Below the pieces are notes generated by a model. It was not told the origin of the DNA and searched no databases. It saw only the letters and a program-made list of their open reading frames with translations. From Patescibacteria group bacterium (lineage in GTDB: Bacteria; Patescibacteriota; Microgenomatia; UBA10105; UBA927): a stretch of 55,870 bases of DNA. Where the stretch lies: positions 1 to 55,870 of the forward strand of contig JAHJMO010000017.1 of NCBI GenBank assembly GCA_018821245.1. Direction: 5' to 3'. This document shows positions 9,601 to 13,343 of the stretch, one piece after another. A program made the translations under genes and the position numbers. The stretch's first letter is position 1. Each line of letters starts with the position of its first letter.

Positions 9601-9655
9601 ACCATATTGGAGTCTAAACTAATCGAAAAATGATACCGTAATTCAGGGTCGCCAT

Positions 9656-10645
9656 TTACGGTTTCTGCGGCCAAAATATTTTGTTAAAGAGTTTTCGTTC
9701 TTCGTTTCGTACTTTTTCAGCAAACTCGTTGTCGCTGTACTGTTGGGCTATTGTATCAAGTTTTCCCCACGACGTCGATGGCGTGAGGAAATTTCTTTTT
9801 GTTTCCCGATAGACCTGTTTGAGTTTGTCGTAGGGAACCATGACTTCACCATACACCCTGCGCTCTCTGTTTTGTTCATCTCGTTTTGTTTCGGTAAGAT
9901 ACAAACAGGGACGGTGAAAATTCAGGTATGGGTTGAACCACTGCGTATAGTAGGCGTTGATCTCGTCTGCTTTCTCCTGGTTGATGTGGACATAGCCCAT
10001 GTTCTTTCGTATGACCGATCCGTTTTTGGTTTCCACCAGTGCATTGTCATTACAATGTCGAGATCTGCTTTTCGTGTGTTTGATGAGGAGCCGATTGAGG
10101 ATTGCCTCAACTGTGTAGTTGATGAACTCTCCTCCCCGGTCGGAGTGAAAATTGAATACCACAAATGGAAACTGATCAATGAGTATTTTCAATGCCGGTT
10201 TCATACAGGATTCTGCAATCACCGGGACACAGACGACAATCTCCCATTGGGTAATCTCATCGACGGCGTTGATGTGGAAAACGTCCCTTTGGTGGACTGT
10301 ATCAATCCGAATGGCACCAGGGAGATTGTTTGGTTCCGGAGGTTTGGTGGTACCGATGGCGATCGCTCTGGGCTTGGTGCCATTGACCCAACTGTTGACA
10401 TAGACGGGATGATGTCGCAAATTGTTGATGTGGGAAATGGAGACACCGGCAATATGGTGATACTCCTGGTGACCAAATACTTCCCATTCCCGCCGAAGAA
10501 TTTCATGGGTAGCGGTGGCATTGAGCCGCAGATGGAGTTCATCTGTTTTTTCCAACAGTTTCACATCTCCACTCGTGTAGATCCGGTTGGGGTTCTCCCG
10601 ATGATATATTTTCCGTACGAGCTTCCCGAGAACCGCCCGCTTCAT
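9656..10645 (-). CDS. IS transposase, integrase core (rve, DDE) domain, IS481/IS3-like
   Basis: IRIDTVHQRDVFHINAVDEITQWE ... FNFHSDRGGEFINYTVE...HCNDNALVETKNGSVIRK: DDE integrase motifs. Confidence 0.88.
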   Translation of the reverse strand: MKRAVLGKLVRKIYHRENPNRIYTSGDVKLLEKTDELHLRLNATATHEILRREWEVFGHQEYHHIAGVSISHINNLRHHPVYVNSWVNGTKPRAIAIGTTKPPEPNNLPGAIRIDTVHQRDVFHINAVDEITQWEIVVCVPVIAESCMKPALKILIDQFPFVVFNFHSDRGGEFINYTVEAILNRLLIKHTKSRSRHCNDNALVETKNGSVIRKNMGYVHINQEKADEINAYYTQWFNPYLNFHRPCLYLTETKRDEQNRERRVYGEVMVPYDKLKQVYRETKRNFLTPSTSWGKLDTIAQQYSDNEFAEKVRNEERKLFNKIFWPQKP

Positions 10646-10684
10646 GAGTTGACCAATTGTTCCAATTGTTCGATACTTTCAATG

Positions 10685-10740
10685 CGTGAGTCATCCATAC
10701 TTGTCTTCATTGCAGAAACAAGTATATCCGGTGACTCACG
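10685..10740. repeat. Inverted repeat / hairpin upstream of transposase, inside the IS right end
   Basis: CGTGAGTCA(10685-10693)...TGACTCACG(10732-10740), with nested ATACTTGT...ACAAGTAT arms. Confidence 0.7.
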
Positions 10741-10823
10741 TTTTGTATCCACCCGACGGTATCATTTTTCGGTTAGATGCAAAACCTCGTACGGTATCAT
10801 CTTCGATTAGACAAGACTTGAGT

Positions 10824-10853
10824 TTGACAGATAGGCATCTAGTATGCTATATT
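10824..10853 (+). promoter_or_regulatory. Candidate sigma70-type promoter for the DGR variable-protein gene
   Basis: TTGACA (10824-10829), 18-nt spacer, TATATT (10848-10853), 8 nt before ATG 10862. Confidence 0.55.
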
Positions 10854-10861
10854 CCCTTCAC

Positions 10862-11503
10862 ATGTTCAAAAGTCTTGAAGGTGAACTACGAAGAAGGGGT
10901 GAAAATCCGTTGGCAAATATTGTCGCTTCTCTACTTAGTGTACGTGGAGAAGATATTCCCTTTAAAGAAAAAACAGGCGATGTGGTTCGCTTTTCTGCCG
11001 AGCAGCGCAAAGCGTTAGAAAAACGAGGCAGGACGGTATACGTTGAACTTCACGGAGAGACGTTGGAAACGTTAAAAGCGCAAACAGGTACGAAAAGTTA
11101 TCTGTATGGCAGGAAAGCAGAAGAAGTCGAAGCGGTTTCTGCTATGCGAGGAGTTGAAGTAGCGATTAACCTCGATCATGCAACTCCGGGAAAAACTTTT
11201 GGCAAGCCATTTAATGCACAACTGCCAATCCTTGAAACAGCAAATAAAGCGATTGAAGGGGTGACTGATACTTATCCTCAAACTCCGGCGGATGCGTTAG
11301 CCGTTGCTTTGGATGTGCAGAAGCAAACAGGAGTAAACATTTTATCAAATTATACTCGGGTAGGTAAAGCTGGCTCTATTCGTGTGGGCTTCTTGAGTCC
11401 CGGCGTCAGAGTGACGGTCGATGACGATTTCCATCCGGATGAGTCGGTTGACCACGTCGGGCTTCTTTCTCTGGCAGTGCCCGCAGCGGCACTTGGGCGT
11501 TGA
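10862..11503 (+). CDS. DGR variable (target) protein of unknown N-terminal family; the listed ORF begins at 10844, ATG 10862 preferred
   Basis: C-terminal 34 codons (GSIRVGFLSPGVRVTVDDDFHPDESVDHVGLLSL) are the VR matching the TR at 11817-11919; start chosen from promoter position. Confidence 0.85.
   Translation: MFKSLEGELRRRGENPLANIVASLLSVRGEDIPFKEKTGDVVRFSAEQRKALEKRGRTVYVELHGETLETLKAQTGTKSYLYGRKAEEVEAVSAMRGVEVAINLDHATPGKTFGKPFNAQLPILETANKAIEGVTDTYPQTPADALAVALDVQKQTGVNILSNYTRVGKAGSIRVGFLSPGVRVTVDDDFHPDESVDHVGLLSLAVPAAALGR
11372..11474 (+). repeat. DGR variable repeat (VR)
   Basis: 103-bp ungapped match to TR with 14 mismatches, 12 at TR adenines; in frame in the target gene. Confidence 0.93.
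11476..11493 (+). promoter_or_regulatory. Hairpin immediately 3' of VR (candidate DGR target-recognition hairpin)
   Basis: AGTGCC-CGCAGC-GGCACT; absent after TR (TAGTTTTTCGAGG). Confidence 0.6.
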
Positions 11504-11580
11504 TTTTTTGAATCTTTTGGATTTTCTCCTTTTGGATCTTCGCGTTTGTGTGATATCCTAGAAGTCAGAAGGCAGTGAAT

Positions 11581-11601
11581 GAATAGCGACTAGTGCTATT
11601 C
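11581..11601 (+). other. Stem-loop upstream of TR (possible TR-RNA leader element)
   Basis: GAATAGC-GACTAGT-GCTATTC. Confidence 0.35.
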
Positions 11602-11816
11602 GTCGCCTACTCACGAGCGGATACATATCGCCAGAGTTCTTGAGATTCATTGATATCTCAAAGAAGTGTGCGGTACCAACTCGAGACACTGCGGACTTTC
11701 CTCTTTGGACGTGTTTGCCTTTTCATTTCTGTTCGAGCAAACGGTCAAATACAATACAGCAGCCTGATGGTCATCGGACTGCGGTGGGAAAAGAGGACGG
11801 AGGAAAGTTTATTTGC

Positions 11817-11919
11817 GGCTCTATTATTGTGGGCAACTTGAATCCCGGCGTCAAAGTGAACGTCAATGACAATTTCCATCCGGATAAGTCGAATGACAAC
11901 GTCGGGCTTCTTTCTCTGG
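11817..11919 (+). repeat. DGR template repeat (TR)
   Basis: GGCTCTATTATTGTGGGCAACTTGAATCCCGGCGTCAAAGTGAACGTCAATGACAATTTCCATCCGGATAAGTCGAATGACAACGTCGGGCTTCTTTCTCTGG; rich in AAY codons; partner of the VR. Confidence 0.93.
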
Positions 11920-11935
11920 TAGTTTTTCGAGGTCA

Positions 11936-12355
11936 CTAGCTCATTTCGTTCTGAACTTTAGCAGCCCGTATCCAACCACCGAGCATTTTGCCGATTTCCT
12001 GAAGCATTTCTTGCAGAACAAGATAGCGTGCACTGGAAAGGGCTTGCGTGTCTTTTGCTAATCGCAGGAGAACCTTGAGTAGGTCTACTTTGACACTCAT
12101 CATTTGAAGGATGTTAAATTTTTCAGGTGAAGTTGGGACGAGAAACAGAAATTCAAGAATATCGAGAACAGTATTTTCTAATCGTGCTCCGAGACTATAT
12201 CGTTGGGTTTTCGGAAATGAGGGAAGTGTTATCGCAAGTTCACGATAAAGAGCGTATAGCTTGGTAAATATGGGAATATCCGGACCAAAGTCTACTATAG
12301 GTGTGTGTGTGTGGCTCTGACATATGAGGGCTATTTTATCATATGACGCACTCAT
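11936..12355 (-). CDS. avd: DGR accessory variability determinant (Avd-like four-helix bundle)
   Basis: DIPIFTKLYALYRELAITLPSFPKTQRYSLGARLENTVLDILEFLFLV...ARYLVLQEMLQEIGKMLGGWIRAA resembles the Avd / 23S-IVS four-helix bundle family; adjacent to DGR RT and TR. Confidence 0.85.
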   Translation of the reverse strand: MSASYDKIALICQSHTHTPIVDFGPDIPIFTKLYALYRELAITLPSFPKTQRYSLGARLENTVLDILEFLFLVPTSPEKFNILQMMSVKVDLLKVLLRLAKDTQALSSARYLVLQEMLQEIGKMLGGWIRAAKVQNEMS

Positions 12356-13343
12356 TGCTCCGGAGCAATTGTTTTTGGCTTGGGAAGAGTTTCGTTTGGG
12401 GAAAAGCGGGAAGCCCGAAGTTCAGCTGTTCGTCCGAACGTTGGAAGATAGTCTTTTTGCCTTACATACAGCGCTGAAACGACAAACATATCAACATGGC
12501 AACTATGAAGCCTTTTGGGTGAATGACCCAAAACGGCGCCATATCCACAAGGCCCCAGTCGTTGATCGTGTCGTGCACCACATTCTGTATACGTACCTCT
12601 ACGACCTCTTTGACCCCACGTTTATCCACGACTCGTATTCCTGTCGTTTGGGCAAAGGAACGCACAAAGGCGTAGAACGGTTGGTGTTTTTTACCAGAAA
12701 AGTATCACAGAACTATACTCGCACCTGCTGGGCACTGCAATTTGATATTCGTCGATTTTTTGCCAGAGCCGATCACAAAACTCTCAAACTATTATTGAGG
12801 CGTAAAATACAGGATGAGAATATATTGTGGTTACTCGATGAGGTAATCGACAGTTTTCACTCGGAGATGGGATATGGGAAGGGTATACCGCTTGGTAATC
12901 TCACGAGTCAGGTGTTTGCCAATATCTACCTTCACGAATTGGATCATTTTATGAAGCATACACTGAAAGTTCATTGGTACATTCGCTATGCAGATGACGG
13001 TGTGGTGGTGTCGTCATCGAGAACACTACTTGAGAAGTTGATTGAACCGATAGAAGATTTTTTGCACACCCGGCTTGCACTTACGTTACATCCGCGCAAA
13101 GTGACTATACGGAAACTGTCATGGGGTATAGATTTTTTGGGGTATATTGTTTTGCCACACTATATGTTGCCGAGGACAAAAACAAAAAAACGCCTCGTGC
13201 GGAGACTCAAAAAGCAAATTGAGTTAGCGTCATTTGAACAATCGTGGGCATCATATTGCGGATACCTGAGTCACTCCAGCAGTTTTCGATTGAGAGAACG
13301 ACTCAAAAATGATCTCTGGCTGATAGGAGGCATAAACGGGTAA
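12324..13343 (+). CDS. DGR reverse transcriptase
   Basis: RT motifs DIRRFFARADHKTL, GIPLGNLTSQVFANIYLHELDHFM (DGR-type GxxxSQ), YIRYADDGVVV, DFLGYIVLP. Confidence 0.93.
   Translation: MRAILSYDALIAPEQLFLAWEEFRLGKSGKPEVQLFVRTLEDSLFALHTALKRQTYQHGNYEAFWVNDPKRRHIHKAPVVDRVVHHILYTYLYDLFDPTFIHDSYSCRLGKGTHKGVERLVFFTRKVSQNYTRTCWALQFDIRRFFARADHKTLKLLLRRKIQDENILWLLDEVIDSFHSEMGYGKGIPLGNLTSQVFANIYLHELDHFMKHTLKVHWYIRYADDGVVVSSSRTLLEKLIEPIEDFLHTRLALTLHPRKVTIRKLSWGIDFLGYIVLPHYMLPRTKTKKRLVRRLKKQIELASFEQSWASYCGYLSHSSSFRLRERLKNDLWLIGGING

Follow-up and report, generated by a model that had tools for sequence, protein, structure and literature searches.

A structured RNA 5' of the template repeat and a simple repeat at the start of avd in a Patescibacteria clade of DGRs

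The window, by which we mean the whole 55.9-kb stretch of DNA analysed here, carries the hallmarks of a DGR: a DGR-type reverse transcriptase (RT), an adenine-biased pair of template repeat (TR) and VR, and a VR located in the 3' end of the target gene. The RT ORF matches PHROG_1423 (E 3.9e-105) and is of the DGR type with intact catalytic motifs. The avd ORF matches Pfam bAvd (E 7.5e-16) and PHROG Avd (E 4.4e-19). TR and VR are identical at 92 of 107 positions, and 12 of the 15 differences fall on TR adenines read on the plus strand. Because the differences concentrate there, we take the TR to be a plus-strand template. The features of the locus are as follows.

10844-11503, plus strand: VP, the target (variable) protein gene, with no Pfam match and with the VR in its 3' end
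11372-11478, plus strand: VR, 107 nt, inside VP
11505-11545, plus strand: degenerate copy of the VR-linked CTTKG repeat that is found after the VR in relatives
11552-11559, plus strand: weak -10-like GATATCCT, near the position of the relatives' -10 peak, a candidate promoter of the TR RNA
11637-11665, plus strand: P1 hairpin of the TR 5' leader, a divergent copy unscored by model R2
11688-11812, plus strand: structured RNA element P2-P3-core-P4, abutting the TR (model R1, 24.9 bits, E 0.001)
11693-11704, plus strand: 5' strand of the P2 helix, pairing with 11799-11810
11708-11746, plus strand: P3 hairpin, 11708-11718 paired with 11737-11746
11748-11758, plus strand: conserved unpaired core AATACAATACA
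11759-11782, plus strand: P4 hairpin
11799-11810, plus strand: 3' strand of the P2 helix, ending 6 nt before the TR
11817-11923, plus strand: TR, the template repeat
11936-12355, minus strand: avd, with an intact reading frame from the ATG at 12355 in the phase that was assembled
12301-12312: (GT)6 simple repeat inside the 5' part of the avd coding sequence, appearing as (CA)n when read from the strand of avd
12324-13343, plus strand: DGR RT with YADD and GNLTSQ motifs, starting after the repeat

All four parts thus lie in the order VP(+)-TR(+)-avd(-)-RT(+), on the strands given by an earlier sequence-only reading of this DNA. That reading also placed the TR close to the avd stop codon, which is correct, at a distance of 16 bp, which becomes 12 nt with the boundaries used here. 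The 32-bp divergent overlap of avd and RT that it described (12324-12355) holds provided that the ATG at 12355 is the avd start. Directly upstream of the VP start, positions 9611-10818 hold an IS-like element that has inverted ends and encodes an rve-type transposase on the minus strand (9656-10645); its insertion may have replaced the VP promoter.

Relatives of the window RT were gathered from the class and the phylum and annotated with HMMs and a finder of A-biased repeats; a first scan of genome contigs with the window RT as sole query had returned no matches. The order VR(+)-TR(+)-avd(-)-RT(+) occurs in 88 of the 119 annotated loci and TR(+)-avd(-)-RT(+) in 93, figures that describe the clade of the window RT rather than all DGRs, because sampling was by similarity to that RT. 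The layout had been considered unusual, a description that these counts contradict: the inverted-avd order is the norm within one clade of Patescibacteria DGRs. The classic avd(+)-TR(+)-RT(+) order is seen with more distant RTs from the same class or even from the same family. Almost every inverted-avd locus sits in one 96-row block of the RT tree (weak support, 81), and a second small inverted-avd group (L113, L121 and L122) lies apart from it. A set of 80 named loci, found by a different route, come almost entirely from Patescibacteria; 64 were previously unseen, and avd is antisense to RT in 60/60 of those that have avd.

That DGR cassette order varies by lineage is noted in a passage of a 2019 survey (PMC6642488). 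The Patescibacteria (CPR) DGRs assigned to clade 2 by Roux et al. 2021 (PMC8144416) have the same hosts and are probably the same clade. That paper's main text makes no mention of Avd, of strand or of orientation, and it seemingly describes neither an RNA leader nor a repeat in avd.

The roughly 300 nt separating VP from the TR contain a conserved element. RNAalifold, applied to a structure-unaware alignment of 30 loci, recovered the P2, P3 and P4 helices with compensatory change in 17 of 19 pairs. In the full structure, 20 of 22 pairs carry changes on both sides (30 loci), and none of 500 shuffles reached any of five measures. The signal peaks only at zero in a slide control, in which shifted partners destroy it. 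Comparative covariation of the TR flanks was one of the checks named in the sequence-only reading, and it places the signal on the 5' side. The P1 hairpin, which has a UACG-type loop, shows compensatory change in 9/9 pairs among sequences selected with a motif rule that constrains the loop and leaves the stem free.

The covariance model R1, which describes the P2-P3-core-P4 element, has 11688-11812 as its only match in the window at E<=10. It matches 78 of the 95 loci searched, as well as L049, 55 of 72 named loci and 74 of 362 genomes of the phylum, whereas a search of 21 classic, distant or BPP-1 loci gave no match. Wherever the TR is known, the match lies on the TR strand (76/76) and ends a median of 1.5 nt before the TR. 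Positions 11480-12060 have no Rfam match at E<=5, and the leader RNA is absent from Rfam. The minimum free energy fold of the window leader agrees with R1, and its fold energy as a single sequence is unexceptional (z -0.85). The window leader is a divergent member of the clade, with a weak R1 match, a P1 that R2 leaves unscored and a poor -10 box; it carries the P2-P3-core-P4 fold ending at the TR by which R1 leaders are recognized.

The distant RT group of L113, L121, L122 and L123 also has avd antisense to RT, without an R1 leader match. One intact leader RNA scoring 93.7 bits (L134, G635:C7:106409-106502) sits in a 92%-complete genome with no RT match, and is either a DGR remnant that lacks an RT or a reused RNA. 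A second candidate for an orphan leader, L133, was rejected since its RT region is masked by N.

On the other side of the TR, a strict scan found a terminator-like hairpin with a trailing U-tract in 53 of 93 relatives; dinucleotide shuffles gave 7.1, the minus strand 13 and mid-avd positions 3. The relatives' U-tract lies at a median of +36 nt after the TR and straddles the avd stop, covering a median of 15 nt of avd. The TR RNA of these relatives thus probably ends at the hairpin and U-tract shortly after the TR. In relatives a -10-like box on the TR strand peaks ~170 nt upstream of the core: one 20-nt bin holds 31, no other bin of that strand exceeds 9, and none on the opposite strand exceeds 7. 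Fixed promoters for RT and avd were considered as well and rejected, as there is no positional -10 peak for them. In L013 and L037, which form one well-supported clade in the RT tree, the TR is inverted onto the avd strand; the leader is still 5' and the terminator-like hairpin still 3' of the TR. Because both elements move with the inverted TR, leader, TR and terminator appear to be one cassette that is independent of avd.

These observations bear on the proposal of the sequence-only reading that avd and the TR RNA exert mutual antisense control. Under this explanation the TR RNA would run on antisense into avd, TR RNA and avd mRNA would regulate one another, and an Sp-like element would reside in the avd antisense strand. 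TR and avd do converge across a 12-nt gap, and read-through of the TR RNA into avd is possible in this window because no terminator hairpin was found after its TR. The terminators ~36 nt after the TR, which lie mainly on the TR strand, argue the other way, as they limit the overlap with avd in relatives to ~15 nt, and the covarying structure sits 5' of the TR. We regard the explanation as quite improbable and doubt that antisense control accounts for the layout. An Sp hidden in the avd antisense strand was rejected as a candidate: no sign of a fold was detected in the 3' flank of the window TR (z +1.18), which is also where the TR RNA seems to end in relatives.

In about 89 relatives the VR is followed by CTTKG motifs in an array, with a spacing of 7-8 nt and 2.9 motifs per 90 nt vs 0.52 in shuffled sequence. 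It also follows the VR where VP has moved. The array may be a target-site element that stands in for the hairpin of BPP-1.

BPP-1, the DGR of a Bordetella phage (Rfam RF03022, Phage_DGR), shares with the window an RT, Avd, adenine mutagenesis between TR and VR, and a structured RNA beside the TR. Passages of PMC12875486 describe how the folded BPP-1 spacer 3' of the TR (Sp) recruits bRT-Avd and how one of its internal adenines primes the cDNA, which is stopped by a motif upstream of the TR. The arrangement differs: BPP-1 has the order avd(+)-TR-Sp-RT(+), whereas the window has its structure 5' of the TR, an inverted avd and, as a further difference, a simple repeat in avd. RF03022 matches the BPP-1 Sp at 104.7 bits and leaves the window region unmatched. 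The structured spacer 3' of the TR that defines this family is missing from the window, and there is no room for a BPP-1-like one because avd lies 12 nt past the TR.

The P1 hairpin offers a point of contact between the two arrangements. The Sp of BPP-1 has a CUACGG loop and the P1 of the Patescibacteria leader a UACG-type loop. When the P1 model R2 was run on 79.6 kb of classic-layout loci, its four best matches (L110, L109, L118 and L117), each with a weak E of 0.045-0.35, all fell on the TR strand within the spacer that separates avd/TR from RT. Such placement in 4/4 cases is unlikely by chance, because the spacer makes up only ~2% of the sequence searched. Judged by P1 alone, homology of the leader RNA to the classic Sp is probable. 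The resemblance of P1 to the hairpin 3' of the TR in classic DGRs suggests that the leader is a circularly permuted DGR RNA. Homology of P3-core-P4 to the classic Sp was rejected, as model R3 gave only chance-like matches and found neither the classic Sp nor that of BPP-1. R1 run on classic loci with filters off likewise gave only chance-like matches.

The sequence-only reading had offered a different priming element as its other option. This part gains some support from the covarying RNA 5' of the TR and from the lack of a structural signal 3' of the TR in the window; that the leader primes is what we infer. Alternatively, the leader could be a regulatory 5' UTR only, such as a riboswitch or stability element, and another element or a nick would prime the cDNA. 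The confinement of Sp homology to P1, together with the indirect assignment of priming, speaks for this possibility. It fits poorly with a leader that ends at the TR boundary in 76/76 loci and that moves with the TR when the TR is inverted, and the terminator was the only other conserved structure seen at the TR ends. We consider a purely regulatory leader unlikely, though worth keeping in mind.

The overlapping 5' ends of avd and RT are of interest because the adjoining simple repeat makes avd look phase-variable. No second repeat like the (GT)6 at 12301-12312 is present in the window, and the 1.08-Mb genome has a single copy of this 12-mer. A simple repeat is present at the avd/RT junction in 65 of 93 loci, or in 100 of 153 after the addition of 60 new loci. 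Its unit may be poly-G, (GT)n, (GA)n, (CT)n, CCTGT or ATTG. Repeat density is 6.36 per kb in the junction vs 0.023 per kb elsewhere in the same loci, a ~270-fold difference. Read on the avd strand, the repeat sits just 5' of the Avd domain; RT is mostly spared, because its start follows the repeat in 49/65 loci.

The length of the repeat sets the reading frame of avd. In 64 of 65 loci, one or more of the three phases lets an ATG 5' of the repeat read into the Avd domain; in 50 loci exactly one phase does so, and an ATG 3' of the repeat is absent in 62. The window itself has no ATG, GTG or TTG between (GT)6 and the Avd domain, and its avd is in frame from 12355. In the first set, an in-frame ATG is found in 20/65 loci with a repeat vs 25/28 without (p 1.9e-7); of the three exceptions among the 28, one is masked and the other two carry a repeat that falls slightly short of the threshold. 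The 60 new loci gave 12/35 with a repeat vs 23/25 without (p 5e-6). Both sets combined give 32/100 vs 48/53 (p 1.2e-12), and an open avd is found in 54/100 vs 49/53 if GTG and TTG starts are allowed (p 5e-7); all these p-values overstate independence since the loci are related by descent, although the unit types differ widely at the same place. This frame logic can be read from the sequences themselves, implying that avd is translationally phase-variable through slippage in the repeat.

Such repeats could also exist without a selected switch, either as neutral hot spots of slippage where the avd N-terminus is unconstrained or as errors of assembly. The N-terminus ahead of the Avd domain is indeed variable, and homopolymer lengths are prone to misassembly. 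Neither source accounts readily for the enrichment over the rest of the same loci, in which non-coding parts are included, for the many unrelated unit types at one place, or for the lack of a downstream ATG. Dinucleotide repeats are out of frame as often, with avd in frame in 8/33. A neutral or artefactual origin therefore seems very doubtful to us.

We think it likely that in the DGRs of this Patescibacteria clade the TR RNA is its own unit, with a 5' leader replacing Sp, and that avd is read through a repeat. The TR RNA would form a short transcription unit composed of a promoter, a structured leader of ~220-250 nt and the TR, to which relatives add the terminator. The leader would do the job of the BPP-1 3' spacer by binding RT-Avd and presenting the primer. 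The RNA would in effect be circularly permuted, which would allow the TR to abut the end of avd. In cells with an in-frame repeat, RT and Avd may assemble on the leader, and cDNA would start near the 3' end of the TR. The P2 helix that touches the TR could then stop the RT at the 5' boundary of the TR, and the adenine-mutated cDNA would replace the VR. Slippage in the avd 5' repeat would shift the frame and turn Avd, and hence mutagenesis, on and off in living cells, leaving RT intact. A switch in avd would act on mutagenesis because Avd is needed for cDNA synthesis in BPP-1, according to a passage of PMC6642488. Taken further, we lean towards a DGR lineage in which the priming and assembly module has moved 5' of the TR, with a boundary set by P2, and in which hypermutation is phase-variable through avd slippage.

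DGR biochemistry is built mainly on BPP-1, and a widespread lineage with its RNA module across the TR offers a natural way to probe how cDNA priming works and where synthesis stops. The hosts of these DGRs are ultra-small Patescibacteria that depend on host contact and are almost unculturable. If the avd switch is real, a random switch controls a targeted mutator, which would directly answer the question of how a dangerous hypermutator stays mostly silent in cells.

Simple-repeat contingency loci of pathogens, such as the neisserial lgtA and opa, are phase-variable genes. They share with avd a repeat in the 5' coding end, a frame set by repeat length and a fraction of about a third in frame. 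They differ in that contingency loci switch surface structures, whereas the gene switched here would be a hypermutation cofactor, and this case is known from sequences alone. The literature passages on both topics contain no description of an avd repeat switch, and parts of the findings on these DGRs may have been described earlier. A single 1.1-Mb genome (G028) encodes six DGR RT loci, five of which have a simple repeat at the avd start.
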